A stretch of DNA of 64,000 bases from a virus: IMG/VR virus record IMGVR_UViG_3300044701_003572, positions 22,379 to 86,378 of that record; one strand, 5' to 3'. Both the position numbers and the translations under genes were made by a program. Below are positions 41,143 through 63,873 of this stretch, in pieces. The notes under the pieces are model-generated. The model did no database searches. It was given only the letters and a program-made list of their open reading frames with translations, and was not told where the DNA came from. Positions within the stretch are counted from its first letter, which is position 1. Each line of letters opens with the position of its first letter.

Positions 41143-41152
41143 AATTATACTT

Positions 41153-46979: not shown

Positions 46980-48454
46980 TTACAGTTAAACTTTTTTTCT
47001 TTATATTCATTAATATGCTTATCTCTATTATAGCATTTAATTTCTTGATTGTCTTGATGAAAACCAATATTAAATGCCGTATCAAAATCTACACCATTCA
47101 ACAACATTTCGTTACCAATGTTCCAAATACCCTGTTTGAAATCGTACTTATTTGAATTAGTCCACCAGTGATTACATAGTTCTACAGCATCGAATATATC
47201 CAAATGTTCTGTGCTCCATAGCAACTGTTTGTCTAATCCCCATTTAAAAAACATCTGTCTGATACTTTCTGGAAACAAATCTACAGTTCTATCTGTAATA
47301 CTAAATCCTTTTTCACGCCACTTGAGGCTGAACTCCGAAGGATTGTGATCATCCATAGGTATAATTAAAGGATTAACAGCCATAGCCTCGCCCTGCCAAT
47401 TATCAATCAACCATTGGAAACCACGATGAGTACTTTCTTTAGTTTCGTGAGGTAAACCAACTATAAGACTTACCTCTCCTCTGTAAGGACCTTGTTGTTT
47501 AAAATACTTTCTTATTTCTACTAGCCCAGGTAACAATCTATCTGGATGCATTCCTTTGCCGATGCTTTTAGCACTTTCATAATTCGTACTTTCTATACCG
47601 TAGAACTGCCCAAACAATCTCATTCTAGCAATATGTTCTAAGTCTTGCGGGCGCGATACCATTAGATCGGCTCTAAGAAATCCGCTGAAAAAAGGTTGAA
47701 AGTTTAGTCTATCAACAACATCAGCAAACTTGATTAATTTTTCTGTGCGATCATTGATAGTTTCGTCTGCTACATAATAGTTTTTTATACCGTAGCGTTC
47801 GTAGGTAGTTCGTAATTCTCGTTCAAAATCTTCAGCATCTCGACTGTAGTCTCCTTTAACACCTAGAACAGGAAAATTACAGAAGTCGCATTTAAATTTA
47901 CAACCTCGTCCTAGCTCTATTCCTAACCATTCGTTAGATAAAAGAAAGTCTCTGTCCTCGTATTCTATTAATAGAGATCTCATAGGAAATGATGGATAAA
48001 ATTGATTGGCTTTGATAACCTTTTTATTGCCTAAATACTTTGCATCAAAGGATATTTTATTGCTGTTGCCGGTTAGATACTTGGTTAACTCTAACATAGC
48101 GTTCTCGCCAAACCCATCTACCCAGTAATCAATATTCTTAGCTGGAGTAGTCATTAGGTCCTGACCGCCTATGACTGTCTTTAGGTGAGGCCACTCTGTT
48201 TTTAACCAAGAGGCATATTGTTCAAGAGTATCTGACCAAGCATTAAAAAAACTACTAAACCCTACAAATACAGTTTTTGATGTAATTCTAGATTTACTTA
48301 ATTCTTTTAACTCGTCTAAAGTCCAGGACATACCGAAGTCAATAACTTCTACGTCCCATTCGTGTTGCCTTAGCCAAGTTGCTATTCTATATACTCCTAC
48401 TCCTCTTCTAATTAAAACAGAATTTACATGGAATAGTAGAGCATGATTACTCAT
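46976..48454 (-). CDS. B12-binding-type radical-SAM protein (7)
   Basis: A 492-aa protein. The first about 120 residues have the Rossmann outline of B12-binding domains (YRIATWLRQHEWDVEVIDFG, TVFVGFSSFF, VIGGQD), but the DxHxxG cobalamin motif is not visible. The radical-SAM motif is CKFKCDFC (Cys 185, 189, 192), preceded by IELGRG and followed by VADETINDR and YGIESTN, as in B12-dependent methyltransferases and methylthiotransferase relatives. Substrate unknown. The gene at 50748 is its closest relative here. It overlaps the dehydrogenase gene by eight bases. Confidence 0.88.
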   Translation of the reverse strand: MSNHALLFHVNSVLIRRGVGVYRIATWLRQHEWDVEVIDFGMSWTLDELKELSKSRITSKTVFVGFSSFFNAWSDTLEQYASWLKTEWPHLKTVIGGQDLMTTPAKNIDYWVDGFGENAMLELTKYLTGNSNKISFDAKYLGNKKVIKANQFYPSFPMRSLLIEYEDRDFLLSNEWLGIELGRGCKFKCDFCNFPVLGVKGDYSRDAEDFERELRTTYERYGIKNYYVADETINDRTEKLIKFADVVDRLNFQPFFSGFLRADLMVSRPQDLEHIARMRLFGQFYGIESTNYESAKSIGKGMHPDRLLPGLVEIRKYFKQQGPYRGEVSLIVGLPHETKESTHRGFQWLIDNWQGEAMAVNPLIIPMDDHNPSEFSLKWREKGFSITDRTVDLFPESIRQMFFKWGLDKQLLWSTEHLDIFDAVELCNHWWTNSNKYDFKQGIWNIGNEMLLNGVDFDTAFNIGFHQDNQEIKCYNRDKHINEYKEKKFNCK

Positions 48455-49004
48455 TTAGATCTATACCTAGATTCTCTTTGATCTTTGACCTAGTATAATC
48501 AGTTAGTTTAAGTTCAAAGTCCATTTGATTAATTCTAGGATTTTCGATCCACCAATCGACTGCGGAAACAATATCACTATAAAGTATAGGATGGTCGCAA
48601 CTGACAGCATTTTCTAACATAGATATTTTCATATACAAGATGTTAGATGTAGACTTTGAACTTAATTTCTTACATCTCTGTTCTAGTTGATGTTTGATTT
48701 CGCCGTAGGGTCTACAATTAGGATACATCTGTTCATAGTAATCTCCAGCGATAGATCCCATAACGATTATCTTAGGCACTGTGCCTTCTAGTCTGTTTAG
48801 CAGATCAATTTGATGAGTTTTAACAAATGAGTTGTTAATAAACAGATCGCAATCTTTTGATAGTTCAACAATTTCTTCTAATTTATCGTTGATGTCGAAT
48901 CCATTAGATCTAGAGAATCCCTGCACTTCCCAACCTTTGGCTGTGAAATGATCATAAAGAATTTTACCTATTCCAAAAGTATGACCGGTGATAGTACATT
49001 TCAT
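48447..49004 (-). CDS. Short-chain dehydrogenase-like protein
   Basis: A 185-aa Rossmann protein. The nucleotide-binding loop is TITGHTFGIGKILYDHF (about residues 4-20), the NNAG-equivalent is INNSF, a Ser is in VMGSIAGD (84), and the catalytic pair is YGEIK (Tyr 100, Lys 104). It is shorter than classical members (about 250 aa), so the substrate lobe is reduced. It would oxidise or reduce an alcohol/carbonyl with NAD(P). It sits between the oxygenase-like gene and the radical-SAM genes in one leftward run. Confidence 0.8.
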   Translation of the reverse strand: MKCTITGHTFGIGKILYDHFTAKGWEVQGFSRSNGFDINDKLEEIVELSKDCDLFINNSFVKTHQIDLLNRLEGTVPKIIVMGSIAGDYYEQMYPNCRPYGEIKHQLEQRCKKLSSKSTSNILYMKISMLENAVSCDHPILYSDIVSAVDWWIENPRINQMDFELKLTDYTRSKIKENLGIDLNE

Positions 49005-49017
49005 CTTGTACTTATTG

Positions 49018-49644
49018 TTAAATTGCTCCAGTGATCTCTAATAATGAATTGACATCTTCAGCATCGACTGAAAATATAATGTGAGGTCGATCCTCAGTGT
49101 CTTCATTATGTACGCTGTGCATCTGGGTAGTATCTACTAGATATATTGATCCGGCCTCTAGATTGTATCTTTCTCCTGCGTCGTCAAAATCAAAATATGC
49201 CTTTTTTGGACTATAGATAGGAATATGTACGTGCCACGATTCATCTACGTGTGTAGGAATATACGATCCGGGATAAGAAAGGCTAACTCCCATTCTATAA
49301 CCCATGGGAAATTTATTAGCGATTCTTTCCGCTATACCAAAATATAATTCAGTATTCCATTCCGGAGAAGGTACTTTAACAAGTACATTCCAAGGTGCGC
49401 AGATTCTCGACTGATCTTCTAAATAAGATTGTATGCTCCATCCGTGGGGCATTCTATTTAAATCGTGTTCTACATTGTCGCCAAATTCGTTAATCTGATC
49501 TGTGGTATACGCTTCTTTCTTGATATAATTTTTCTGTTCGCTGTGTACAAACTTTTTATGCTGAAAATTTTCAACGATAGCCTTGTAATAATCTCTAAGC
49601 TCTTCGATATTCACAGTGACGTCTAATTTATAAATTCGTTTCAT
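49018..49644 (-). CDS. AspH/2-oxoglutarate oxygenase-like protein
   Basis: A 208-aa protein from the ATG at 49644. The region YPGSYIPTHVDESWHVHIPIYS, then AGSIYLVDTTQMHSVHNEDTEDRPHIIFSV, has the H-x-D...H and distal Arg spacing of cupin-type Fe(II)/2OG hydroxylases related to AspH. The N-terminal 90 residues are helical. It leads the leftward run to 44575, with a TAAATA element seven bases before the ATG and no Shine-Dalgarno site. Substrate unknown. Confidence 0.72.
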   Translation of the reverse strand: MKRIYKLDVTVNIEELRDYYKAIVENFQHKKFVHSEQKNYIKKEAYTTDQINEFGDNVEHDLNRMPHGWSIQSYLEDQSRICAPWNVLVKVPSPEWNTELYFGIAERIANKFPMGYRMGVSLSYPGSYIPTHVDESWHVHIPIYSPKKAYFDFDDAGERYNLEAGSIYLVDTTQMHSVHNEDTEDRPHIIFSVDAEDVNSLLEITGAI

Positions 49645-49651
49645 AGTCACA

Positions 49652-49657
49652 TATTTA
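49652..49657 (-). promoter_or_regulatory. Late-promoter-like AATAAATA element
   Basis: The minus strand reads GGCAATAAATATGTGACTATG; seven bases separate the element from the ATG at 49644. Confidence 0.45.
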
Positions 49658-49677
49658 TTGCCCAAAAAAACTAACAG

Positions 49678-49683
49678 TAAATA
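49678..49683 (+). promoter_or_regulatory. Late-promoter-like TAAATA abutting tandem ATGs
   Basis: The plus strand reads ACAGTAAATATATGATG; one and four bases separate the element from the two possible start codons of the rightward radical-SAM gene. Together with 49652-49657 it forms a compact divergent pair. Confidence 0.45.
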
Positions 49684-49684
49684 T

Positions 49685-50755
49685 ATGATGTTTTATGACA
49701 CTATAAAAGAATTAGATATTGAACACAGCTCGGTCTGCAATGCTGCTTGTCCTAGTTGCACTAGAGAACTACGTCCGGGAGATTATAGCTGGTTTAAACA
49801 AACTTGGTTACCCGAAGAGTTTTACAGAGAACGTATTCCACAAGAAATCTTTGATAACTTAGAAAGTATTTTCTTTAGCGGCATGGTTGGTGATCCTTGT
49901 GCTGCTCCAAATTTTTTAGAAGTCTGTAGAATTATCAAACAGAGAGCACCTCATATTAATATCAAAGTTAGTACTAATGGAGGAATGCGTAATCCGGAAT
50001 GGTGGGCCGAATTGGCAAAGATCTTAGATAAAGGATCCTGGGTCCGATTTGCTATAGATGGTTTAGAAGATACCAATCATATCTATAGAGTTAATGTTCG
50101 ATGGGATAAGACTATTGAAAATGCTCGATCATTTATCGATGCCGGCGGCGAGACCGAATGGCAATTTATCGCATTTAAGCACAACGAACATCAAATTGAA
50201 CAGGCTAGAGACTTTGCTTTATCTATAGGTTTCGATAGATTCATTGTTCGTAAGAGTCATAAGTTCTTATTAGACGCACTTTTTGAAATGCAACTCGCAG
50301 GTACGGGGGGCATTAAAATAGAAAAGCCTACACAGGACAAGTATGTGCATCCGTTGATATTAGAAAAATCTAAACCTTTTAAACTCAAAGAAGCATTAGA
50401 ACTTTCTAATAACAGTCCTATTACTTGTGAAGTACAAGGTCGCAAGGCTATGTATATTTCTGCAGAAGGATTTTTATTTCCCTGTGTTTATACCGGAACT
50501 TGTGTACATTTATCAAAAAGCAAAGACCTAAATGACAGTTGGGGTCAACTATGGTCAGAACACGGTAGTGATAAAATTAACCTAATGAAAAATGAGTGGC
50601 ACGATATTCTTAACGGCGATTTTTTTAACAATATACAGAAAGGTTGGAGTTGCGGCTACAGTAATGGACGCTTGGCTGCTTGTGGATTATTCTGTAGTAA
50701 GTCCGCAGCAAGAATTTTTGACTCGTGCGTAAATTACGATATTACAGATGTATAA
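49685..50755 (+). CDS. Radical-SAM protein with SPASM-like C-terminus (8)
   Basis: A 356-aa protein starting at the ATG at 49685 (or 49688). The cluster motif is CNAACPSC (Cys 18, 22, 25). The GGE-like position reads SGMVGDPCAAPN. Then STNGGMRNPEWW and DGLEDTNHIYRVN, nearly superposable on the gene at 39380. C-terminal cysteines lie in CEVQGRKA, LFPCVYTGTC and CGYSNGRLAACGLFC. It is coupled to the B12-type gene downstream by an eight-base overlap. Confidence 0.88.
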   Translation: MMFYDTIKELDIEHSSVCNAACPSCTRELRPGDYSWFKQTWLPEEFYRERIPQEIFDNLESIFFSGMVGDPCAAPNFLEVCRIIKQRAPHINIKVSTNGGMRNPEWWAELAKILDKGSWVRFAIDGLEDTNHIYRVNVRWDKTIENARSFIDAGGETEWQFIAFKHNEHQIEQARDFALSIGFDRFIVRKSHKFLLDALFEMQLAGTGGIKIEKPTQDKYVHPLILEKSKPFKLKEALELSNNSPITCEVQGRKAMYISAEGFLFPCVYTGTCVHLSKSKDLNDSWGQLWSEHGSDKINLMKNEWHDILNGDFFNNIQKGWSCGYSNGRLAACGLFCSKSAARIFDSCVNYDITDV

Positions 50756-52352
50756 TGTTATTCTTTTTACAGACACCCCTGGCACAGATTGGTTAAGCAG
50801 AGGTTACGGTTGTTATCGTTTAGCCACAGAGATCAGAGAAGCAGGATTTACTGTACTTACAGTTGAATACGGATCTAGCCTTACGTGGGATCGATATAAG
50901 GAAGTAATTGATCAGGCAGTTGGGGATGACACCTTAGTTGTTGGTTATTCCACAACCTGGTTCCCTTACAGGAATCTTAATAAGATTAATCCTAGATATT
51001 CTGTAGGTTTCAAAAGCAACAAGGAACATACAGATTTTAAACACGACAAACATTCTTGGTATTATGAAAGCCTTAGTCATTGTTTTAGTCAAGAGGATCC
51101 GGACAAATGGGTTGATTATGTTAAACAAAAAAATCCTAAAATTAAATGTATAGTAGGTGGTGCTAAATCTAACGAATATGTTTTTGAACCTAATGTAGAT
51201 AATATATTCATTGGATTCAGCGAGAATATGATTCTAGATTATGTTAAAAGTCTCAGCGGCCAAGGACCAAAAAGAATTTTTAATAAAATAGTTAATTATG
51301 ATCCCAAGGCATCGGATCCACGATTTGATTTTAAAAGTTCTTTTACAAGATATGTCGATACAGATTGTCTAGTCCAAGGAGAATTATTAACATTAGAATT
51401 TGCTAGAGGTTGTATCTTCAATTGTAATTTTTGTTCTTATCCTCATCGAAATCAACAGACCAGAGATTATATCAAATATAAAGAAAATATTCGAGCAGAG
51501 TTAATGGAAAATTGGGAGAAGTGGGGATGTACTAGATACATGATCACCGACGATACATTCAACGATGCCACAGAAAAATTAATACACATTAAAGAAGTAA
51601 TCGAAACTTTGCCTTTTAAACCTAAGTTTTGGGCGTATTGTCGAATGGATTTATTTCATAAATTTCCAGAACAGATACAGCTGATGAAAGATATTGGTGT
51701 TACTGAAATCTATTACGGTTTAGAAACCTGGCACGACAAGACTGCTAAAGTAATTAACAAAGGTGGTAAAATAGAAAACAAAATTTCTGCTATGAAAAAG
51801 GCTAGGGAAATCTGGGGATCTGACGTATACGTTACAGTAGGCTTAGTTATGGGATTACCTCACGACACAGTCGATAGTGTACAACAGGCCTGTGAGTGGT
51901 TTAAAGCTGAAGGACACAAATATATCGATTGGTTTAACGTATCATCATTAACAGTGTATCCCCCTACCGATAATTTAAAATATAAATTCTTTTCAGACAT
52001 AGAAAAAAATTTAGACAAGTACGGATACACATTCCCGGACGTAGAAAATAATCCTATAGAATGGAACAGACACGACGATGGCGATATCTGCAGTAAAAGT
52101 CAGGCTGATCAGTTAATGGACTTTTGGATGAAAGAAATAGGTCCCTACCAAGCTCCTAGAAAACAAATGTGGTTTTCTAATGCTCTTACAACAATAGATC
52201 CTAGATTAGATTACGAGTATCTTTTACATACGACTAGAGATGAATGGAATGATATTTTTAGAGGATTTAATCCTACAGAATATTATTGGAAATACGTAAA
52301 TTTTTACTATTGGCCGAAACTTTTAAGTATGTTACGGAAAAACAATTCGTGA
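50748..52352 (+). CDS. B12-binding-type radical-SAM protein (9)
   Basis: A 534-aa protein. The N-terminal 165 residues look like a B12-binding-type Rossmann domain (YGCYRLATEIREAGFTVLTV, CIVGGAKSNEYV) without an obvious DxHxxG. The cluster motif is CIFNCNFC (Cys 222, 226, 229) after LEFARG, then ITDDTFNDA and YYGLETWH. It is a longer relative of the gene at 46976. Relatives include enzymes that methylate unactivated carbons or rearrange skeletons. The 3' end overlaps the convergent SGNH gene by 46 bases. Confidence 0.88.
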   Translation: MYNVILFTDTPGTDWLSRGYGCYRLATEIREAGFTVLTVEYGSSLTWDRYKEVIDQAVGDDTLVVGYSTTWFPYRNLNKINPRYSVGFKSNKEHTDFKHDKHSWYYESLSHCFSQEDPDKWVDYVKQKNPKIKCIVGGAKSNEYVFEPNVDNIFIGFSENMILDYVKSLSGQGPKRIFNKIVNYDPKASDPRFDFKSSFTRYVDTDCLVQGELLTLEFARGCIFNCNFCSYPHRNQQTRDYIKYKENIRAELMENWEKWGCTRYMITDDTFNDATEKLIHIKEVIETLPFKPKFWAYCRMDLFHKFPEQIQLMKDIGVTEIYYGLETWHDKTAKVINKGGKIENKISAMKKAREIWGSDVYVTVGLVMGLPHDTVDSVQQACEWFKAEGHKYIDWFNVSSLTVYPPTDNLKYKFFSDIEKNLDKYGYTFPDVENNPIEWNRHDDGDICSKSQADQLMDFWMKEIGPYQAPRKQMWFSNALTTIDPRLDYEYLLHTTRDEWNDIFRGFNPTEYYWKYVNFYYWPKLLSMLRKNNS

Positions 52353-53053: not shown

Positions 53054-53077
53054 GTGTTATATTTAATATACAATAAA

Positions 53078-54250
53078 ATGTCAGAAATTTTTTTTCAAAT
53101 TAACCAATTTAATCAACTGGACTTCGACTCGGTATTTAAACACGTAGAATCTCTAGGCGGCCATCTTTTAGAGCCAACAGTTAGTCTGTGCCATCAGTGC
53201 CATTATCATATACCGGGATATACCTACTATGTTAACGACCAATTATGGATGATTAAAAAATGTAAAATTCACGGTATCACAACACATATGCTCGAACGTG
53301 ATTACACTTTTTATAAAAATTTAATTTACACCGATGCTTCTTTTACATTTACTAAAAAAAGCATCTTAACAGAAGTAACGGATAGATGCAATGCTGATTG
53401 CCCTCATTGCTATCATATTCCTGATAATAAAACATTAGATATTTCGATAGATGAAATAATATCTAGAATCGAAAAATGGAATCAGGGAGATGTTGATATT
53501 AACTTTGCAGGAGCAGAACCAACAATAAGAAAAGATTTTCCTGAATTGGTTAGGCGTGTAAAAGAAAGATGGCCTAATAATGCTCTTGGAGCATTAACTA
53601 ACGGTATTAGACTAGCAGACAAGGATTGGTTATTGGAAATTAAGGAAGCAGGAATTACTGCTTTAACTATAGGATTGAATCATCCTAGCTATCTTAATAA
53701 TGAAACACTAAGAAAGAAACAATTACAAGCGATTGATAACTGTTATGAGTTAGGAATGATGACATATTCGATTGGTTATACTATGGCAAGTCTAGAAGAG
53801 TTACATTTTATATTAGATGAAATTTGTAGCAATCCTTGGACACCAGTACATTTTAGAATACGATACGGAAGCGACATAGGTCGTTATCCTAATCAAGAAA
53901 GAATGTACGTAAGTGACACATATAAAGCTATTAAAATTTGGTGCGAAAAAAATGGTGTACCGTTCGAAGATATACCCGGGGATAATAATCTATATCATAC
54001 GATGGTCAATGTTAATGGAAAGTCAGTCCGAGTAATACAATGGTGCGATGAAACAGATATTCATATGGAAGAATTGTTAACTGGACCTTATTGCGACTTT
54101 GTTTCAGACGGTGTGACTAATTTCTTGCATCAAATAATCCGCAGAGACATAGAAAAAAATCAAGGAATTCGATTGCCGGATAGACCTCCTGCTAGATATC
54201 TTATGGAAAATAGATTTAACGTAGAATCTTTGGAGTTTAAAAATTTATGA
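53078..54250 (+). CDS. Radical-SAM protein with N-terminal zinc motif, Tes/MJ0619-like (10)
   Basis: A 390-aa protein from the ATG at 53078. Before the core is a CxxC...CxxH knot (SLCHQCHYHIPG, then KKCKIHG; Cys 38, 41, 62, His 65), as in tetraether-lipid synthase (Tes) and pterin methylase-like (MJ0619) radical-SAM proteins. The cluster motif is CNADCPHC (104, 108, 111). The GGE motif is changed to FAGAEPTIRKDF. A C-terminal auxiliary cysteine set is weak (QWCDETD, GPYCDF). It may join or methylate lipid or pterin-like substrates, but this is only family-level inference. Confidence 0.82.
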   Translation: MSEIFFQINQFNQLDFDSVFKHVESLGGHLLEPTVSLCHQCHYHIPGYTYYVNDQLWMIKKCKIHGITTHMLERDYTFYKNLIYTDASFTFTKKSILTEVTDRCNADCPHCYHIPDNKTLDISIDEIISRIEKWNQGDVDINFAGAEPTIRKDFPELVRRVKERWPNNALGALTNGIRLADKDWLLEIKEAGITALTIGLNHPSYLNNETLRKKQLQAIDNCYELGMMTYSIGYTMASLEELHFILDEICSNPWTPVHFRIRYGSDIGRYPNQERMYVSDTYKAIKIWCEKNGVPFEDIPGDNNLYHTMVNVNGKSVRVIQWCDETDIHMEELLTGPYCDFVSDGVTNFLHQIIRRDIEKNQGIRLPDRPPARYLMENRFNVESLEFKNL

Positions 54251-54822
54251 GAATGATAGAATTTGATCACGACGATTTTGTAAAATTTTCTAAAGATGTT
54301 TTTAAAACTCTAGATTTTCCTATTGATTACTATAAAGGAACTGCGGTTTGGAATATGGCCTCTGTTAGGCCTGATTTGATAAATCAAGCTAAGAATTTTT
54401 TTCCTTGGTTATCAGGAAATGTTGCAGCATTTTTTTTACAACCAAATTCTCATTGTCCTATTCACGTTGACGATCATGACAATGTATCTTATTTCAACGC
54501 ACTCAATGTATTAATTGAAGACAATAACGGAAATCATAAAACATATTATTATGATGTTCCGGGAGGTTGGAACATACACGATCAGGGTACAATATACGGA
54601 TGGGGTGACGAGTATGTTGAAGGCGATCAAAAAATTCAAAGAGTATTTTCGCACACTGTAACAAAACCAACATTGTTTAATCATCAACAATTACATAGTA
54701 TTGAAAATTTTGATGGTAAGATACGAATAGTATTATGTTGGCAAATACATAAAGATTATAGTATAGAACATTTGAATTTATGGTTAGAAACAAATAATTT
54801 TAATCCTAAGGTACTTTATTGA
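54247..54822 (+). CDS. Cupin / 2OG oxygenase-like protein
   Basis: A 191-aa protein. LQPNSHCPIHVDDHDNVSYF gives an H-x-D pair, and NHQQLHSIENFDGKIRIVLCW gives the distal His and Arg of the double-stranded beta-helix of Fe(II)/2OG enzymes. Divergence is high and activity unproved. It overlaps the radical-SAM gene upstream by four bases and the next oxygenase gene by one (TGATG). Confidence 0.65.
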   Translation: MRMIEFDHDDFVKFSKDVFKTLDFPIDYYKGTAVWNMASVRPDLINQAKNFFPWLSGNVAAFFLQPNSHCPIHVDDHDNVSYFNALNVLIEDNNGNHKTYYYDVPGGWNIHDQGTIYGWGDEYVEGDQKIQRVFSHTVTKPTLFNHQQLHSIENFDGKIRIVLCWQIHKDYSIEHLNLWLETNNFNPKVLY

Positions 54823-55397
54823 TGTTGTTAAATTATAAACAGTATCGTCACTATAATTTGATAGATAATATTCTGTTAGTAGTTCAAGAAGAATTAAAAG
54901 AATATTTAAAATATAAAAAACAAAGTGATATGGCTTCTCTTGATTGGTTCGAAAATCAATATGGACATCAGTTACCTATGAGAGATATATTAAAGTTATG
55001 GTGGACTGTTCCTAGTATAAGAGCAGGTAATTATACTGAATGGTCTTTATTGATGCCCAATATGTCTAAGGCAGCTTACGATTTACCAGGGATAGTTAAT
55101 TTTAGTTTAAACTGTATATCTCCGGGGGGTATGATTCCAGTACATTCTGATTATACTTATGACATGAGAGAAGATTTATCAAACATTAAAAAAGCCTTTG
55201 CGATAATTGTTGCGGTTGATATACCTGCCGGGTCTCTAGACGAATGTGGCTTTGAACTCAACGGTAATAAAATTTATCTTAAGACCGGTGATATTATTGC
55301 ATTTGATGGAAAATTTCCTCACGGTTCTTGGAATTATACTTCTCAATGGAGGTACACATTGAATATGGATATAGAGGAGTCGTACTGGAATGTTTGA
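54822..55397 (+). CDS. Aspartyl/asparaginyl beta-hydroxylase-like oxygenase
   Basis: A 191-aa protein. ISPGGMIPVHSDYTYDM contains the first His and Asp of the AspH type. Then KTGDIIAFDGKFPHGSWNYT and QWRYTLNMDI contain the second His and the 2-oxoglutarate-binding Arg. It is one of three consecutive oxygenase-like genes made as one unit (one- and eight-base overlaps). The target amino acid or small molecule is unknown. Confidence 0.75.
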   Translation: MLLNYKQYRHYNLIDNILLVVQEELKEYLKYKKQSDMASLDWFENQYGHQLPMRDILKLWWTVPSIRAGNYTEWSLLMPNMSKAAYDLPGIVNFSLNCISPGGMIPVHSDYTYDMREDLSNIKKAFAIIVAVDIPAGSLDECGFELNGNKIYLKTGDIIAFDGKFPHGSWNYTSQWRYTLNMDIEESYWNV

Positions 55398-55974
55398 ATA
55401 TTTAAATTATGTACAAATCCCGATCGATTTAAGAGATCATATTTTAGATTTAGCATTTAAAAATTCTTCTTATCAGGCGGAGAGGTTTGAAAAATTTTAT
55501 ATCGATAATAGAATAGAAGAAGCCATAGACGAAAGTTATCCTACTGTAAAATTAGGATTAGGTATATCTCCTAAAGAAGCTGAGAAAGTTTCCGGTATGT
55601 GTACAATGACTATGTTTCAATCAGATAAAGTTACAGATTGGGTTAGAAATAATATCAATGATTCTTTTATGGCTGTACACATTCAAAACTTCGATCGGGG
55701 GAGTTTATTCTTTCCTCACGTAGATCTAATTAGAACAAAAGCTTTAAATTATCTTATTGAAAGCGGCGATGCTGATACAATATTTTTCGAACCTCTCGAA
55801 GAGTTTAAAAATTTAGTTCCGCAACCTAGTACATATATACCTCATAATAGAATACGAGAAATTAAAAAAATTAAAATAGAAACAAATAGATGGCACCAAC
55901 TAGATGTTACTAAAATTCATAATGTAGAAAATATTAAATCTAGAAGATTAGCAATCACTGTTAGTTTCGCTTAG
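55390..55974 (+). CDS. Cupin / 2OG oxygenase-like protein
   Basis: A 194-aa protein. FDRGSLFFPHVDLIRTKALNY supplies H-x-D, and QLDVTKIHNVENI followed by RRLAITVSF supplies the distal His and Arg. It is distantly related to its two upstream neighbours. The 3' end overlaps the convergent aminotransferase gene by 27 bases. Confidence 0.65.
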   Translation: MFEYLNYVQIPIDLRDHILDLAFKNSSYQAERFEKFYIDNRIEEAIDESYPTVKLGLGISPKEAEKVSGMCTMTMFQSDKVTDWVRNNINDSFMAVHIQNFDRGSLFFPHVDLIRTKALNYLIESGDADTIFFEPLEEFKNLVPQPSTYIPHNRIREIKKIKIETNRWHQLDVTKIHNVENIKSRRLAITVSFA

Positions 55975-57132
55975 TACTGAAACGAGTTTATTTTTTAAAG
56001 AATCAAAATAGTCAAATTCGGCGGTGATAGGAATCATCACTAAAACTCCATCTCGACTGCTATTCCAAATCCCCATATGCATTCCATGTTTGTAAAAAAT
56101 AGATTCTTTTTCTAAATAGTTTGATATTTCTGTTTTTAAGATTAGATTAAAACATACTCCGAAGTTTCTATAGTCTTTGATTAATTTTTGATTTTTTAAA
56201 TCATCAAATAATGATCTTGCAGTTGAAATAATTGTATCGTGCATCGATAAAATATTTTCTTTTTCGATTATGTCTAGATATTTTAAAACACTAATGATCC
56301 CGGCCATAGGAAAACTATAACTGAATCCGTGCATCAACATTTGTGGTTTAACGACATCTGCAACACGCTGGTTACAAAGAGTTGCACTTAAGGGAAAATA
56401 ACCTCCTGTTATTCCTTTTCCTATACAAAATATATCCGGTTGAACACCGTACATTTCGAACCCGAATAAGGTCCCTGTTTTTCCTCCGCAAAATGCTATG
56501 TCATCGATGACTAATAATACGTTATTTTTATTGCAAATATCTCTCAGATTTTGAAAATATTCTTGACCTAAATCAATTAGGCCGCCTTGCCAGGAACAAG
56601 TTTCTATTATTACTGCTGCGGTATCGGAATCGATTTGATCTAGTTGATCATATGAAATAATTTGACAATCATTATGACGCCCAAAAATATTTGTAATATA
56701 TTCACTTCCGCTCACACTAGAACTCATATATGTCGAACCGTGATAAGAGTGTTGAAAACCTATAATTTTTTTCTTTTTTCCTTGATGAAACATATGAACT
56801 AGTTTAATTGCACCCTCTATAGCATCACTGCCTGATAAAGAATACATTGGATAATAACCGTTAGATAAATTATAAAGTTTTTGAGAAAGCAAAGTAGTCA
56901 AATAATTAGCTGTAACGAAGTCTCCTTGACAGAAAGGGTATTTCTTTAATTCGTCTGTAACCGAGTCAATTAAGTCTGTTCTTTTAAATCCGAGTAAGAA
57001 ACAACCACTACTACCTAATCCAAGATCTAAAATATCTCTCTCGTCGTCTTTAAAACCGTATTTGGTTATTTCTGTTGATTTTTTAACAGTCGGCAACGGA
57101 TCGTTTATGCTAAATGGAAATAATTGTTTCAT
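55948..57132 (-). CDS. Class III PLP-dependent aminotransferase
   Basis: A 394-aa enzyme with the class III motifs: SGSDAIEGAIKL (phosphate-binding region, about 100-111), FQHSYHGST (127-134), VIDDIAFCGGKTGTLFGFE (Asp 210 for the pyridine ring) and CIGKGITGG (Lys 239 for the Schiff base). Relatives move the amino group of an amine or omega-amino acid, or act as aminomutases. The usual DExxxGxGRTG is replaced by DDIAFCGGKTG. It is the last gene of a leftward run with two twitch radical-SAM proteins, overlapping the upstream one by four bases. A plausible use is to install an amine in a biosynthetic product. Confidence 0.88.
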   Translation of the reverse strand: MKQLFPFSINDPLPTVKKSTEITKYGFKDDERDILDLGLGSSGCFLLGFKRTDLIDSVTDELKKYPFCQGDFVTANYLTTLLSQKLYNLSNGYYPMYSLSGSDAIEGAIKLVHMFHQGKKKKIIGFQHSYHGSTYMSSSVSGSEYITNIFGRHNDCQIISYDQLDQIDSDTAAVIIETCSWQGGLIDLGQEYFQNLRDICNKNNVLLVIDDIAFCGGKTGTLFGFEMYGVQPDIFCIGKGITGGYFPLSATLCNQRVADVVKPQMLMHGFSYSFPMAGIISVLKYLDIIEKENILSMHDTIISTARSLFDDLKNQKLIKDYRNFGVCFNLILKTEISNYLEKESIFYKHGMHMGIWNSSRDGVLVMIPITAEFDYFDSLKNKLVSVLSETNSDC

Positions 57133-58346
57133 TCGTACCTCTTAATAAAAGGATATAGTTTTTGGTAGTTAGTTTTTCTAGTGATATCGTATAGATCCAG
57201 AACTCTGGTTCTTTCTGTCACTACTTCGTTAAAATCATTTATTTGACTTTGTAAAATTTCGATAGAATCTAGGATACCTTTCTTAAATCCTTTGCTATCA
57301 CTTAATATTTTTAAATCTTTATTTGAACATTTTTTGAGAAGACATATAGCTTTTTCTTTTTGTTCGGGTTCTAGATATTCAAAAGAAAAATAGTCTGGTT
57401 GAAATACGATTCTAAGTACAACATCTAACCATTCTATATTATATTTTTCTGCTGTCTTTTCGAAAGTGTCTAGAATTTCTTCTATATCAAATATATTGAA
57501 TATACTTATGGTAAAAGATATTCCAAGATTTCGATTGCCTGCTGAAATTAGTTTGTCTAAATTTTTTAAGAAATTGGAATAAGTAGCAGGATATCTTATG
57601 AGCCTAAATTTTTCATCCTCTATATGATCCCAACTAATCCATAGTTCTTTTTTTGGAAATTGAGTTAGCTTAGATAACATATCGTCAGTTAAACTAGTGA
57701 GATTTACTGTAGTTGATAAGTGTATATCTGTATATTTGTGTCTAATACAATAATCCAAGAGATTGTGTGTTACGGGACTAATTAATGGTTCACCACCCTG
57801 TAGTTCTAGTTTAATCTTATTCTTTAATAAACTTTCGATATTTTCTAAGATATAATCGCCTGCATAGAAATTACCTTGATTAATTTCTTCAATGACTTCG
57901 AGCCATTTAGGCATTTTTATATTTTCAGTTCTAAACAATTTTACTTCTTTCTCATGCTGAGAACTCTGATAATGATTACAAGTAATACATTTTAAATTAC
58001 AAGTATTATCTGATTTTAATCCTAACATCGAAGGTAAAGACTTTGTTTTTATGTTAATGTCTGTGTTTAGATTCTTAAACACTTTATTGAACTCTTGACG
58101 TTGACTGGTTGTTCCTCGAAGCTCTCTATTCCAACATACTTGACAATTTTTGTTTCTAACACCATTGAGTAAATCTTGTCTTAAGTTAACAAAATAATCA
58201 TCGTTCCACGCTTGTTCTATAGTGTGAGTATTAATGTTACTATTTTTTGTATCGCCGGTCTGACTGTGACCGCAGGCTACATAATCTCCGTTACGCTCTA
58301 AATAGACATTAATAAAAGGCATAATACAAAATGTTTCTTTATTCAT
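57129..58346 (-). CDS. Twitch-type radical-SAM protein (11)
   Basis: A 405-aa protein. N-terminal auxiliary cysteines: TFCIMPFINVYLERNGD (Cys 7), ACGHSQ (25), CQVCWN (68, 71). Core: CNLKCITC (116, 120, 123), ELQGGEPLISPVTHN. It keeps a single Cys at position 25 where its relatives have a CC pair. It is a tandem paralogue of the gene upstream with an eight-base overlap, and both end in a TNYQKLYPF / TDYRTMFPY type tail. Confidence 0.9.
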   Translation of the reverse strand: MNKETFCIMPFINVYLERNGDYVACGHSQTGDTKNSNINTHTIEQAWNDDYFVNLRQDLLNGVRNKNCQVCWNRELRGTTSQRQEFNKVFKNLNTDINIKTKSLPSMLGLKSDNTCNLKCITCNHYQSSQHEKEVKLFRTENIKMPKWLEVIEEINQGNFYAGDYILENIESLLKNKIKLELQGGEPLISPVTHNLLDYCIRHKYTDIHLSTTVNLTSLTDDMLSKLTQFPKKELWISWDHIEDEKFRLIRYPATYSNFLKNLDKLISAGNRNLGISFTISIFNIFDIEEILDTFEKTAEKYNIEWLDVVLRIVFQPDYFSFEYLEPEQKEKAICLLKKCSNKDLKILSDSKGFKKGILDSIEILQSQINDFNEVVTERTRVLDLYDITRKTNYQKLYPFIKRYE

Positions 58347-59646
58347 AATCTTTTAAGTAAGGAAACATTGTTCTGTAATCTGTATTTCGAATTTGATCGT
58401 AAATTCTCAAAACTCGAGTTCTTTCTCTGCACACATCAGTGTGGTCAAGATTTTCATCTCCCATATAACCCGGCACGCTAATCACACTTTCTACAAATTC
58501 TGGATTATCACGGAATATTTTATAATCATAATTGCGTGTCATAAAGTTGTTGATTCGGTCAGTTATTTCTTGTTTTTGATCTAATTCTAGGTAGCGTAGA
58601 CTAAAATAATTTGGATAATAAATTAATCCAAAGTTTATAACAAAACGATTAGTAGTTCTATGTGCAATAGTTTCCCATTCGGTAAAGATATCTTCGAAAT
58701 CGAAGATATTAAAAATACCCCAGGTAGTACTAAGTTTTTTCTCTATATGTTCATATTCCCAAAGTTTTTCAAAATTTCTTTTAAACACCGAATAGTCTGC
58801 GGGATATCTTATAAAATTAAATTTTGCAGGATCAATATGGTCGTAGCTAATACATAGCATCGGATATTTGAATTGATTTAGCAATCCTATGGTTTTAGGA
58901 TTGATCACAGATAGGTTTGTGATGATCTGTAACATCATATTTTTTGCATAACCTTTTTCCACACATTGCTCTAATAATCTTTGTGTGGTTTTGTTGACCA
59001 ACGGCTCCCCGCCTACTAGACTCATGTGTATGGCCTGTTGCAAACTAGGGTCTAAATTTTCTACTATTGGTTCGATATCTAAATCTCTAGGATTAAAATC
59101 TTCAACCTTAAAATTAAATTCTTTTACTCTATTGTCGAACATCTTTAGAAGGCCAGGAAGCTCTATACCTTTAGATGTCATTTCTTCTTGTTCGTCTTGA
59201 TGTAGACTACTACTGCCCGGATAGCACATAATACACTTTAAGTTGCACTGTGTTCCTACTTTCACATCAAGGTCAGTTGGCGGTGTTGATAATGCACCTC
59301 CATTGGCCAGAGCATCGTTAACAAATTTATCATAATCTGGATACATAAAGTGTTTCTCGTCATTGGTCTTTTGACGCTTACTATATGCACCCCCTGCTTC
59401 ATAATTCCAGCAGTATTCGCAGGTGGGATTTTTAATTCCATTTAATAGATCTAATCTAAGCTTTTTATACTGATCGCTGTTCCATACCTCTATTACATTA
59501 TCCTTTCTCATATTATAAGGAGTACCGTCGGGTTTGGCCACAACTATTTCTTCGCTGCAACAACAAGCTCGATAATTGCCGTCATTAGTAGAGCTTATGT
59601 GCGTAAACGGCAAAAGACAAAATGTAGGATGATTCTTATAATCCAT
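58339..59646 (-). CDS. Twitch-type radical-SAM protein (12)
   Basis: A 435-aa protein. N-terminal auxiliary cysteines: TFCLLPFTHISSTNDGN (Cys 10), ACCCSEE (28-30), CEYCWN (76, 79). Core: CNLKCIMC (134, 138, 141), SLVGGEPLVNKTT. A tandem paralogue of the next gene. The start overlaps the kinase-like gene upstream by 11 bases, so the leftward unit runs kinase-like, twitch, twitch, aminotransferase. Confidence 0.91.
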   Translation of the reverse strand: MDYKNHPTFCLLPFTHISSTNDGNYRACCCSEEIVVAKPDGTPYNMRKDNVIEVWNSDQYKKLRLDLLNGIKNPTCEYCWNYEAGGAYSKRQKTNDEKHFMYPDYDKFVNDALANGGALSTPPTDLDVKVGTQCNLKCIMCYPGSSSLHQDEQEEMTSKGIELPGLLKMFDNRVKEFNFKVEDFNPRDLDIEPIVENLDPSLQQAIHMSLVGGEPLVNKTTQRLLEQCVEKGYAKNMMLQIITNLSVINPKTIGLLNQFKYPMLCISYDHIDPAKFNFIRYPADYSVFKRNFEKLWEYEHIEKKLSTTWGIFNIFDFEDIFTEWETIAHRTTNRFVINFGLIYYPNYFSLRYLELDQKQEITDRINNFMTRNYDYKIFRDNPEFVESVISVPGYMGDENLDHTDVCRERTRVLRIYDQIRNTDYRTMFPYLKDYE

Positions 59647-60226
59647 AAACTTTCTCGTAGATTTTAGGCAAAATGTTTCCAGGCCATTTTATATAATCAT
59701 TGAACGCATACTTCATTAGAATTCTCATGTCTAATTTTCCGTCTGTACTGATCTTTTCAATAAGATCTAATCGATCGCTATTTAAGATGGGTTTGTAAAA
59801 ATCTATACTTATAGGTTGCTCAGAATAATCACTGGCAGAATAAAAGTTAAATGCGTGAATTTTATTTCTCGAGTCTACATAAAAATATTTCGGATAGAAA
59901 CTAGGCTTGTAAATTCCTTCTCGATCAAGATCAATAACAATAGATTCTAATTGACTAACATAATCGTCGGGAATAATATCTTCGCAGGTATTTCCGTACC
60001 AACGAAAAACAATGCGCCTAGTAATTTTATCCATAGTAACAATTTCGGGAGACCAGCTATACTTCTGTAATCGTTCCAAGTATCTCACTTCTCGAGAAAA
60101 ACTGCTGTTAATTAAGTCTTCGGGATACCAGTTACCTTCGGGGTTAAAGTCCATGCAGAAAAGTCTACCGTCGTTGGTGATTAGGCTTCTATAGATTCCA
60201 CGATTTGAATTATATAATTTGAACAT
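59636..60226 (-). CDS. Small kinase-fold-like protein
   Basis: A 196-aa protein. A beta-rich N-lobe (RSLITNDGRLFCMDFNPEG) is followed by a helix SREVRYLERLQKY, RIVFRWYGNTCED (hinge-like) and a C-lobe with LDREGIYKPSFYPKYFYVDS, which recalls the catalytic-loop region of aminoglycoside- and lipopolysaccharide-kinase folds. The typical HxD is not exact, so it may be a pseudokinase or a very small kinase. The gene at 63187 is a clear paralogue. Function unknown. Confidence 0.55.
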   Translation of the reverse strand: MFKLYNSNRGIYRSLITNDGRLFCMDFNPEGNWYPEDLINSSFSREVRYLERLQKYSWSPEIVTMDKITRRIVFRWYGNTCEDIIPDDYVSQLESIVIDLDREGIYKPSFYPKYFYVDSRNKIHAFNFYSASDYSEQPISIDFYKPILNSDRLDLIEKISTDGKLDMRILMKYAFNDYIKWPGNILPKIYEKVYGL

Positions 60227-60249: not shown

Positions 60250-60257
60250 TATAAATA
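60250..60257 (+). promoter_or_regulatory. Perfect late-promoter TATAAATA abutting a start codon
   Basis: The plus strand reads CATCTATAAATACTCGATG. The eight bases match the T4 late consensus exactly, and four bases separate them from the ATG at 60262. Confidence 0.65.
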
Positions 60258-60261
60258 CTCG

Positions 60262-60804
60262 ATGAAACTTATTGGGAATACTCTACATCTCATAGATTGG
60301 GATACTGTTATTAACACAATTAAAGATCGATCTGGAAACACACTAAAGTATAATGATAGTTGTTTTCCAAAAACTGACGACTTTGATCGGTTAGATAAAA
60401 TTTGGACAAAGGCAGGATATCTAAGAAACTCTGAAGTAGTTGAGTGGACTAACTACTTTCCAGGAGATGATTTTGATAAAACAGTTGTTGATCAATTTCG
60501 CAATATAGTTAGAGCAGAACCTTGGATGGTTTGGATTAGTAGAATACGCCCAGGAAAAATGGCTCCTTGGCATTTTGATGCACACAGCAAAATTAAAGAT
60601 TTAGACAAATTAGGAACGCCGGTTAGATTTACTTGTTATATTCAATCACCGCAACCAGGACACGTTAGCATTGTAGAAAACAGTTCAGTCTATATGCCGG
60701 ATAAGGGAAGCATATACCAGTGGCCTAGTCATGATGCTTGGCATTGCGGTATGAATGGAGGATTAGAGGATAAGTTTATGTTTAATTATTGGGGTTATAA
60801 ATGA
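60262..60804 (+). CDS. Cupin / 2OG oxygenase-like protein
   Basis: A 180-aa protein. IRPGKMAPWHFDAHSKIKD gives H-x-D, TCYIQSPQPGHVSIV follows, and WPSHDAWHCGMNGGLEDKFMF gives the distal His. This fits the beta-helix Fe(II) fold of 2OG enzymes, although the terminal Arg is not obvious (FMFNYWGY). It overlaps the halogenase start by four bases, so the two are probably made together, which suggests sequential action on one substrate. Confidence 0.65.
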   Translation: MKLIGNTLHLIDWDTVINTIKDRSGNTLKYNDSCFPKTDDFDRLDKIWTKAGYLRNSEVVEWTNYFPGDDFDKTVVDQFRNIVRAEPWMVWISRIRPGKMAPWHFDAHSKIKDLDKLGTPVRFTCYIQSPQPGHVSIVENSSVYMPDKGSIYQWPSHDAWHCGMNGGLEDKFMFNYWGYK

Positions 60805-62375
60805 ACGTAATAATTGTAGGAGGCGGAACAGCCGGATGGATGACCGCCGGATGGCTAGTTAAAAAGAATAAGAATGTGTCAATAACAGTAATTGAAAGCC
60901 CTGACATTCCAAAAATCGGAGTAGGTGAAAGTGTAACACCACACGTAGCTAATTTCTTTATAGAATTAGGAGTTCCCGAAGAACACTGGATGTATCATAC
61001 TGGAGCAATCTATAAATTGGCTAATAAATTTGTTAATTGGAAAACAAATACAGGCGAAGCTGAATATTTTAGTTTTAATTACACAGGGGACTCCCGATTA
61101 TTCTATAAAGAAAATAGTGTGCCGTTGTCGAAGGACGACTGGCAAATTAAAAATCTACGATCATCAGATATATTATTAGATTTATGTAATCAAGGTAAAA
61201 TCGATAAATTTGGTAGTTATTTTCATACTCAGCATCATTACATGGAACAAAATCGAGCACCGTTTATTGATAACGAATATTTGCTTAATCCGTTGTTTAG
61301 TTGGAGTCATCATATCAATGCTGAACTAACTGCTGAATACATACGAGATCACATTGCTATTCCAGCAGGGGTTGTTCATATACAAGCCAAGGTAGTAGAT
61401 GCTAGTATGCAGGGCGAAAATATCACTTCAGTTATTCTAGAAAATGGCGAAGTGATTACCGGCGATGTCTTTGTGGACTGTACAGGATTTAGACGATTAC
61501 TAACAAATAAGTTAGGATGGAAAGTTAAAGAATATTCTGATGCCGCAGTTGACCGTGCATGGGTTTGTCAAATTGATTATACTAATCGTGAGAAAGAAAT
61601 GGTCAATTATAGTCAGACTATTGCACACCCGCACGGTTGGATGTTCAGGATTAGTCTATATCATCGAATGGGGACCGGATACATCTTTAGCTCTAATCAT
61701 ACTACCGAAGAAAAAGCTAGAGAATATTTTCTTAATCAAATAGGTGATATGGATCGTAGATTTGATCCTAAATTAATAAAATGGAATCCTAGTAGATTAG
61801 AGCATGCCGCTAATGGAAATACAGTAGCAGTGGGGTTAAGTTTTGGGTTTGTTGAACCTATGGAGGCTAATGCACTCTACACTATTATTACTACTATTGG
61901 TAAGTTGAGCGAGGCTATAGATAATAATTTAGACTTTGAGTTATTAAACAAAAATGTGTGTTATAGTATGGATGACATTGCTGACTTTGCAATGTTACAT
62001 TACAGCCTAAGTCAGCGCACCGATACTAACTTTTGGAGTGACATGAGAAGTCGTAATGTTAATAATGGTCATATCGATCTGCTATACAGTAAGTATACTA
62101 ATCCAATGCATTCGATGTCTAGTTGCATCGATGGAACTACATTATTTCCTGACTACATGTGGGCACACTTAGCACAGGCATGGGGAGTTGATACTAGCTC
62201 CTGGAATATTAAAGTTGATACGGCAACTCAAGAACTTGCCAAACTTTATTATGAATATCAATACAATAAACATAAGATAGCCAGCAGCAAATGTAACAAT
62301 AATTATTTATGGCTAAAAAAGAATCGATTCAACAATTTAAATTCCCAAGAATGGGAACGTTTAATACGAGGTTAA
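60801..62375 (+). CDS. Flavin-dependent halogenase (tryptophan-halogenase family)
   Basis: A 524-aa protein. The FAD-binding motif is IVGGGTAGWM (5-14), then PKIGVGESVTP (37-47). The lysine equivalent to PrnA Lys79, which carries the activated halogen, is Lys 72 in IYKLANKFVNW. SFGFVEPMEANALY supplies the EPxE glutamate, but STG after it is replaced by ANA. The WxWxIP signature that suppresses mono-oxygenation reads GWMFRIS, so it is degenerate. A halogenase of this family (VirX1) has been described from a cyanophage. Substrate and halide are not predictable. Confidence 0.86.
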   Translation: MNVIIVGGGTAGWMTAGWLVKKNKNVSITVIESPDIPKIGVGESVTPHVANFFIELGVPEEHWMYHTGAIYKLANKFVNWKTNTGEAEYFSFNYTGDSRLFYKENSVPLSKDDWQIKNLRSSDILLDLCNQGKIDKFGSYFHTQHHYMEQNRAPFIDNEYLLNPLFSWSHHINAELTAEYIRDHIAIPAGVVHIQAKVVDASMQGENITSVILENGEVITGDVFVDCTGFRRLLTNKLGWKVKEYSDAAVDRAWVCQIDYTNREKEMVNYSQTIAHPHGWMFRISLYHRMGTGYIFSSNHTTEEKAREYFLNQIGDMDRRFDPKLIKWNPSRLEHAANGNTVAVGLSFGFVEPMEANALYTIITTIGKLSEAIDNNLDFELLNKNVCYSMDDIADFAMLHYSLSQRTDTNFWSDMRSRNVNNGHIDLLYSKYTNPMHSMSSCIDGTTLFPDYMWAHLAQAWGVDTSSWNIKVDTATQELAKLYYEYQYNKHKIASSKCNNNYLWLKKNRFNNLNSQEWERLIRG

Positions 62376-63164
62376 GTGATCAATACCTAACTTTTTTCGA
62401 AAAGCTTCTGTAAATTTTCCGTCAATGCGTAAGCTGTAACTTTGTTCGATGATCTTTTCGCCGCCGTGCCAGTCTTGATCGTTCCACCAAGCAGCACGAG
62501 TGTTTAGATAAACTTTATTTTTTGTATCCGGATCCCAAATATAAAAGGCTTTTTTAGTATTGGGTCTAATATGTATGAATTCATTACGATGTGGAAATGT
62601 AATGTTCATACCGTTCTTAGCATCTAGATCCCTGTGTTCAAATGGTATACCATCATGATCACAGTGAAAGAAAATAACACGACCGATGTGTTCAAATATA
62701 CCTCGATCGATGGTAGATTCCACCCACTTGACTACATTGGGAAAATACGCAGCTTCTTCTGTAAGTTTGCGAGGAGCCGTGCGATCGTCCCAAGAACCTT
62801 CTTCCCATAAGAAATAGTAAATGTAGGGATCGTACGCACCTAGAGCCATTTTTAGATAACGAGTAAATTTGTTTCTAGTTTGATGGTCTTTGATATTTGT
62901 ATAAAGATCCCATCCCCCTCGTTTGATAGGGTCATTATCCGGTAAGGATAGATATTCTTCTAGTGCTTGGTAGATAGGTTTCCAATGGGGAGTGTAGCTC
63001 ATTTCTTCAAAGGTAAATCCCGGTGCCATCCAAGTACCTTCTTTGGCATAGGGGCGTGCCTCGGCGAACCCACGGATGATTTCTGGTTGCAGTTTATCAA
63101 AAGTCTGCATATCCAAAAATTTTTCCATATCGAAATAGGTTTGGCCGTTTATTCCTCTGATCAT
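62361..63164 (-). CDS. Putative 2OG-Fe(II) oxygenase-like protein
   Basis: A 267-aa protein. VIFFHCDHDGIPFEHRDLDA, FIHIRPNTKKAFYIWDP and AAWWNDQDWHGGEKIIEQSY, SLRIDG contain candidate H-x-D, a distal His (WHGG) and Arg of the cupin oxygenase fold. The N-terminal 140 residues are not recognised. It has a good AGGA site before its ATG. Its 3' end overlaps the convergent halogenase gene by 15 bases. Confidence 0.6.
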   Translation of the reverse strand: MIRGINGQTYFDMEKFLDMQTFDKLQPEIIRGFAEARPYAKEGTWMAPGFTFEEMSYTPHWKPIYQALEEYLSLPDNDPIKRGGWDLYTNIKDHQTRNKFTRYLKMALGAYDPYIYYFLWEEGSWDDRTAPRKLTEEAAYFPNVVKWVESTIDRGIFEHIGRVIFFHCDHDGIPFEHRDLDAKNGMNITFPHRNEFIHIRPNTKKAFYIWDPDTKNKVYLNTRAAWWNDQDWHGGEKIIEQSYSLRIDGKFTEAFRKKLGIDHLTSY

Positions 63165-63186: not shown

Positions 63187-63873
63187 ATGAAGTACGAATA
63201 CTACTATAATAATGTTCCCGGCATTGGTTTAACAAGGAACAACCTTATTTACACCAGTCTTATCAGTGACGATAAAAAAACTTTTGTCATGTGGTTTCAC
63301 AATGACAGCGAATATCATCGAGGTCAAAATGAAGTAATTGATTCAGAGTTAATGAAATCTAAATGGAACCGTGAAGTAAAATACCTTATAGAAATGTCTT
63401 GGAAGTATGAGGATAAAGTCCCAAAAATACTAGAGATAGATCATCAAAATCAAAAAATATATTTGGCTATCGATGGTTTAGATTTTTGGAATCGCGCAGG
63501 CTGTTTGACAGAAAACTATAACAGCGTATTACCCGATTGGCAAGATCAAATGTTAAGAATATTAACTGCTCATAGATCTTTGGGATTGTACAAGTATTCA
63601 ATGCACCCGAGCAGTTATTTTATTGTTGATGGTCAATTAAAAAGTATAAATTATTTCTTTTGCTATCACAAAAATGAAGGACCAATCTCTATCAAAGACC
63701 ATTCAAGTCATATACATTCTAATAGACAAGTAGAAATGCGTAAACATATAGATAGGCTAGGAATTAGTTGGACAGAACCTCAACCTTTGGCACTCCTGCA
63801 AGACCTCTGCTGGGAAAGTTTTAGAACAAATTATCCTAGCGATTTTATTGAGAAGGCAAAATGTATAAAGTAA
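63187..63873 (+). CDS. Small kinase-fold-like protein, paralogue of 59636
   Basis: A 228-aa protein matching the gene at 59636 in order: TSLISDDKKTFVMWFHND, NREVKYLIEMSWKYEDKVPKIL, KIYLAIDGLDFWNRAG and HRSLGLYKYSMHPSSYFIVD. The phrase HRSLGLYKYSMHPSSY resembles a kinase catalytic loop. No HxD aspartate is evident, so activity is uncertain. It overlaps the last gene of the window by 13 bases. Confidence 0.55.
   Translation: MKYEYYYNNVPGIGLTRNNLIYTSLISDDKKTFVMWFHNDSEYHRGQNEVIDSELMKSKWNREVKYLIEMSWKYEDKVPKILEIDHQNQKIYLAIDGLDFWNRAGCLTENYNSVLPDWQDQMLRILTAHRSLGLYKYSMHPSSYFIVDGQLKSINYFFCYHKNEGPISIKDHSSHIHSNRQVEMRKHIDRLGISWTEPQPLALLQDLCWESFRTNYPSDFIEKAKCIK

Follow-up and report, generated by a model that had tools for sequence, protein, structure and literature searches.

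In flavin-dependent halogenases (FDHs), the WxWxIP motif, which is conserved in most but not all members, has been proposed to keep the substrate off the flavin and so prevent monooxygenation (PMC8407142, PMC10696468), while active FDHs without this motif are known, e.g., Bmp5 (PMC8407142), so that its absence does not exclude an FDH. In Thal, halogenation is lost with any replacement of the catalytic lysine (Lys79), although HOX formation continues (PMC7948982). The halide is bound through backbone amides (PMC5945002), an FX[DE]PX[EFL] motif has been described for FDHs (PMC8407142), and Trp2 and Trp4 motifs have been defined for free-tryptophan halogenases (PMC8269204). What separates halogenation from monooxygenation has been called an open question (PMC10696468).

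Separately, radical-SAM-rich islands with no known product were reported from T4-like phages in 2010, including the Campylobacter phages CP220 and CPt10, whose radical SAM gene clusters and amidinotransferase have no known function (PMC2853527). These were followed in 2017 by a T4-like ocean virus genome with 12 radical SAM genes and, again, no known product (PMC5332604), and pelagimyophages have been described as carrying radical SAM cassettes in their host recognition cluster (PMC7029224). Our literature searches for viral gene clusters combining halogenase and radical SAM genes yielded nothing of relevance, and no report was found that ties such modules to the halogenase clade described below. 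To our knowledge, no product of the radical-SAM-rich phage modules is known.

Here, we describe a halogenase-like gene within such an island of an uncultured virus. The enzyme family and the radical-SAM phage islands were already known, whereas what is new is that the altered motifs of this protein are the signature of a viral halogenase-like subfamily.

A halogenase-like gene and its oxygenase-like partner

The window, i.e., the whole stretch of DNA analysed, covers the final 64 kb of a record of 86,378 bases from an uncultured virus. This record encodes an endolysin, a clamp loader, a DNA polymerase, and baseplate and tail-fibre genes and is therefore consistent with a T4-like virus. An initial annotation had drawn two overlapping genes near the end of the window, and both open reading frames were recovered with the same coordinates, strand, and frame, joined by an ATGA overlap:

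60250–60257, +, TATAAATA, late-promoter-like octamer; only perfect copy in the window, position conserved in one relative (L031)
60262–60804, +, double-stranded beta-helix Fe(II)/2OG oxygenase-like protein, 180 aa (invariant residues, AF2, Foldseek)
60801–62375, +, flavin-dependent halogenase-like protein, 524 aa, PF04820 (Pfam, PHROG, AF2 model and Foldseek)
61014–61016, +, Lys72 codon, aligned with Lys79 of RebH, PrnA, and VirX1 (31/31 clade rows covering the column, 131/132 bacterial rows)
61635–61655, +, GWMFRIS, residues 279–285, variant of G-WxWxIP (W280 and F282 in 32/32 clade rows)
61854–61874, +, EPMEANA, residues 352–358, at the EPLESTG site (E352, P353, E355, and N357 in 32/32 clade rows)

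The 524-aa product is firmly placed as a relative of the flavin halogenases with the PF04820 fold, in agreement with the initial annotation. It matched PF04820 (Trp_halogenase) at E = 3.2e-88 (297 bits vs. a cut-off of 21) and PHROG 2928 ("tryptophan halogenase") at 2e-93, and an AF2 model built from 28 relatives (mean pLDDT 91.7) returned only halogenases among the 50 Foldseek matches listed. First among these was VirX1 of cyanophage Syn10 (PDB 6QGM; 1.8e-39, TM about 0.77), which was also the best solved relative by single-sequence search (1e-58), in support of the initial comparison with this protein. VirX1 is likewise a viral PF04820 protein with Lys79 and the EPLE glutamate and no free-tryptophan motifs, but it is only about 29% identical overall, keeps WVWNIP and ESTG where the 524-aa protein has WMFRIS and ANA, and comes from a phage with no radical SAM gene. 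RebH, PrnA, and PyrH, together with AbeH, matched the model at TM up to 0.82, and the first three share its GxGxxG, lysine (Lys79), and catalytic glutamate.

Alignment with VirX1 and RebH upheld the individual motif readings. The FAD motif is kept (VGGGTAG, residues 6–12), Lys72 aligns with RebH Lys79, and both glutamates of EPxE are present, Glu355 being the second E of EPLE and the catalytic one, while WxWxIP is not matched because the second W and the P are changed, and ANA stands in place of STG. FVEPME (residues 350–355) satisfies the FX[DE]PX[EFL] motif, whereas the Fx.Px.Sx.G tunnel motif (taken as FxxPxxSxG) is not matched, FVEPMEANA carrying S-to-A and G-to-A changes. By alignment, Asn75 (Ile82 in RebH) lies beside the lysine, and Asn357-Ala358 occupy the halide site (the amides of T359/G360 in RebH). 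The notion that ANA marks a loss of halide binding is unsupported, as backbone-amide ligands could be left in place and these residues vary widely in other homologues (ESTS, EATA, EASA). Trp2 (HxFG-type) and Trp4 (YYxxF.. or YHG..) free-tryptophan motifs were absent from the 524-aa sequence by reading. A tryptophan-binding motif is likewise missing from BrvH and metagenomic halogenases lacking Trp4, which are of marine type (PMC8269204, PMC5945002), and by analogy with these BrvH-type enzymes indole-level substrates would be expected, although BrvH differs in keeping WxWxIP and in having T351 and S352 at the halide site (PMC5945002).

The overlapping upstream gene had been called cupin-type, a label that stands as a fold class, while Fe(II)/2OG oxygenase fits better as a precise one. 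Its 180-aa product carries an HxD...H metal triad (H104-x-D106...H161) on a double-stranded beta helix, and H104-x-D106, R122, H161, and N165 are invariant in 15 relatives. R, K, or H stands 11 residues after the distal His (K172 here), in the region where a basic residue would be expected to bind 2-oxoglutarate. Sequence searches found no Pfam, PHROG, or phage-genome match and nothing significant in the PDB, while Foldseek with the AF2 model (pLDDT 92) retrieved AspH, collagen prolyl hydroxylases, and viral vCPH. The protein thus looks like an Fe(II)/2OG oxygenase of the AspH/prolyl-hydroxylase kind, with TM values of about 0.5 leaving the exact family unfixed. Its coupling to the halogenase, also claimed initially, goes beyond local chance, since the pairing recurs in two other loci (L010 and L031) and the two kinds of genes are also neighbours in HTVC008M and Sf-CH11, yet it is not universal in the clade. 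In Pelagibacter phage HTVC008M, a dioxygenase gene likewise lies directly upstream of and overlaps the halogenase gene, but that halogenase is canonical (GWVWKIP and EPLEATS) and lies in the terminase region of a phage with one radical SAM gene.

A perfect late promoter had been annotated before the oxygenase-like gene, and the octamer is indeed present. TATAAATA occurs perfectly once in the window vs. about 9.8 copies expected, and NATAAATA/ATAAATA is similarly depleted (8 copies vs. about 33), with sites including 60250–60257, 53046, 49659, 32002, 9190, and 3349 in the window and L031:4465. Given this rarity, and given that six of the eight ATAAATA copies lie 0–33 nt upstream of an open reading frame (several at 0–7 nt), a late-promoter-like role for the motif at 60250–60257 is plausible. 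The box stands 4 nt from the ATG of the oxygenase-like gene, an arrangement kept in L031 as CATAAATA. With T4 spacing, transcription from it would begin at the start codon. If the copies 0–7 nt before open reading frames are promoters, leaderless late transcripts would be implied.

A viral clade with its own motif signature

A degenerate scan of viral contigs yielded 79 loci, and a joint alignment comprised 32 clade rows (near-copies included; one is a fragment beginning after Lys72), 45 other viral rows, and 132 bacterial rows. The 32 clade rows are 33–88% identical, and above roughly 33% identity to the window protein, rows have GWxFx[IV][GSAD] and EP[ML]E[AS]N[AMSV] in common. Phe282, Asn357, Asn75, Asp391, and His424 are invariant in the clade, whereas bacterial rows have W282 in 131/132 (Phe282 in one), T or S at position 357 in 131/132 (Asn in none), and I or S at position 75 in 123/132. 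Lys72 is present in all 31 clade rows that reach its column and nearly universal across the joint alignment, and Glu355 is universal. RebH, PrnA, and PyrH differ from the clade, which has WxFxI[GSAD], EAN for EST, and neither Trp2 nor Trp4.

In a tree built by a quick method (LG+G4), to which we give moderate weight, the clade fell on a single branch (SH-aLRT 90, rising to 99 once the long row L057, which likewise has EAN, was added) and joined the VirX1 group (SH-aLRT 89) as its sister rather than nested within it. None of four query sequences found a clade member in a cultured phage, identities being at most about 32% among the matches listed. A first scan for bacterial homologues gave no matches because its peptides were clade-specific, and a second found ordinary PrnA-like homologues only. 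The clade is a branch of flavin-dependent halogenase-like enzymes that had not been marked before, and its unusual motifs are kept in many uncultured viruses.

The initial annotation had described the WxWxIP motif as degenerate, and departure from the textbook consensus could in principle reflect a decaying, non-functional halogenase copy. This is extremely improbable and already contradicted: the frame is open at full length in relatives, the signature is shared and fixed in the clade, and dN/dS was 0.03–0.08 (five pairs). The "degenerate" motifs are therefore the signature of a viral subfamily under strong purifying selection, a maintained variant rather than a decayed halogenase, and gene decay is rejected. 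The clade also conserves substrate-domain residues of its own (H424, K431, W454, and PDYMW), which, together with the absence of Trp2 and Trp4, suggests that one specific substrate may be common to its members.

Halogenation or another flavin reaction

On balance, the 524-aa protein probably belongs to a distinct viral subfamily (W-x-F-x-I, E-P-x-E-A-N) of two-component, FADH2-dependent halogenases and would tailor an electron-rich aromatic group that is not free tryptophan. FADH2 would come from host reductases, given that none of 12 virus records held a flavin reductase of PF01613, the family searched. O2 and halide would then form HOX at the flavin, with bromide and iodide no less probable than chloride, and HOX would reach Lys72 and Glu355 by way of a tunnel and halogenate the substrate there, late in infection. 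That substrate may be the island product or an intermediate of it, or a peptide made with the island.

The main competitor, which we consider unlikely, is a switch of the clade to flavin monooxygenase or oxidase activity, its WxWxIP opened and its halide site altered so that C4a-hydroperoxyflavin reacts directly with the substrate. The clade-wide replacements of W282 by F and of P285 by G, S, A, or D point this way, as do T357 to N, S356 to A, and G358 to A or M, and the altered strand has itself been suggested as the barrier between flavin and substrate site (PMC10696468). Asn75 and Asn357, being subfamily-wide, could signal different chemistry, and the unmatched tunnel motif also counts against the halogenase reading. 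However, Lys72 and Glu355 remain invariant, and an ordinary monooxygenase would seem to have no use for Lys72, since the equivalent lysine of Thal is required for halogenation and not for HOX. Single changes of a similar sort are also seen outside the clade (bacteria have GWIWDIG and EPLEASA/EPLEATA, and a separate phage group has GWQFRIP), the halide ligand is a backbone amide (PMC5945002), and FDHs such as Bmp5 do without WxWxIP altogether (PMC8407142). Retention of Lys72 and Glu355 under strong selection makes it most likely, on sequence grounds, that the clade still uses HOX, and the same pair favours halogenation as the likely reaction of the 524-aa protein. A clade that alters WxWxIP and the residues after EPxE but keeps the Lys/Glu pair offers a naturally occurring test of what divides halogenation from monooxygenation.

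The radical SAM island and what it may make

The enzyme-island setting noted initially was borne out, as the halogenase gene lies in an island (37.8–63.9 kb) with 12 radical SAM genes, a class III aminotransferase, and hydroxylase-like and PP-loop-like genes; the whole record encodes 12 radical SAM domains. Its genes are:

37817–50755, strand not assigned, rest of island: radical SAM at 37817, 39368, 42479, 43737, 44575, 45594, and 49658; PP-loop-like at 41102; hydroxylase-like at 40462 and 49018
46976–48454, −, B12-binding-like/radical SAM protein (PF04055 3e-11; PF02310 1e-5, under its cut-off)
50748–52352, +, radical SAM protein resembling B12-type methyltransferases (PF04055 1e-19; NCBIfam matches sub-threshold)
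53054–54250, +, radical SAM protein with HMPTM-type zinc ribbon (PF04055 2e-17, PF23545 3e-8)
54819–55397, +, aspartyl/asparaginyl beta-hydroxylase-like protein (PF05118 2e-9)
55948–57132, −, class III aminotransferase (PF00202 5e-49)
57129–58346, −, Twitch-type radical SAM protein (NF033640 2e-73, over cut-off)
58339–59646, −, Twitch-type radical SAM protein (NF033640 1e-83, over cut-off)
59636–60226, −, 196-aa protein, kinase-like by eye only (family 1; second member at 63187–63873; no Pfam match)
62361–63164, −, 267-aa protein adjoining the halogenase in many relatives (family 4, 16 loci; no match in phage genomes)

The two family 1 genes, 59636–60226 and 63187–63873, flank the oxygenase-halogenase pair, and this family occurs in 16 loci.

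Such islands accompany the clade more widely. Nine to 22 radical SAM genes were present in 16 of 20 clade records, whereas none of 16 phage records with other halogenases had at least nine (Fisher p = 7e-7, a value that ignores the shared ancestry of the viruses). Two clade records of 47–51 kb had one radical SAM gene each, and in L034 the halogenase stands apart, yet its 116-kb record holds nine. Eight clade records carry a full-length amidinotransferase-like gene, one family member of which (L014) matches StrB (6e-19), AGAT, and SxtG, and seven loci (L019, L023, L024, L026, and L028–L030) show, with some variation, the order SDR-like, amidinotransferase-like, aminotransferase, halogenase, unknown families, radical SAM. 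In five others (L003, L005, L035, L037, and L039), a small AMP-binding (adenylate-forming, AMP-ligase) gene directly precedes the halogenase, overlapping it in places. Among records with 9–22 radical SAM genes each (G000, G003, G009, and others, i.e., the records behind L003 and L040), some also encode B12-binding or HMPTM zinc-ribbon domains.

The best reading of this co-occurrence within related viruses is that the 524-aa protein is a late tailoring halogenase of the radical SAM island. More tentatively, uncultured T4-like viruses may carry a self-contained biosynthetic pathway of 9–22 radical SAM enzymes, an aminotransferase, an amidinotransferase or AMP-ligase, and 2OG oxygenases, whose output during infection would be a halogenated specialised metabolite or a modified peptide, tailored by the halogenase subfamily. 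It is also possible, if doubtful, that the substrate is no small molecule but a virion or host protein, e.g., tail-fibre residues, halogenated or oxidised within a host-recognition cluster. The island does sit among tail-fibre and baseplate genes and encodes SPASM radical SAM proteins and AspH-like hydroxylases. Proteins of both these kinds commonly act on peptides. Pelagimyophages have radical SAM cassettes in their tail-fibre region, which is the host recognition cluster (PMC7029224), and MibH halogenates a peptide, with the BrvH site being open and MibH-like (PMC5945002). Against a protein substrate, the aminotransferase, amidinotransferase-like, and AMP-ligase genes of the same islands suggest small-molecule chemistry. 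If the halogenase does tailor the island product, halogen isotope patterns would offer a direct handle for finding that product.

Among described phages, CP220 and CPt10 resemble the window virus in being T4-like and in their radical SAM clusters (11–12 radical SAM proteins per genome), and no clade halogenase was found in CP220. Their relative CP21 encodes a 399-aa halogenase-like protein (L173:8572–9771) with WCWTIP and EPLQST, in which Gln aligns with the catalytic glutamate. In another phage halogenase group (L045, L048, L055, L067, L070, and relatives), the GVGE flavin loop is lost (IGVGES is replaced by ITIGGS or IEMSAS), while the lysine and EPMEAT are kept.
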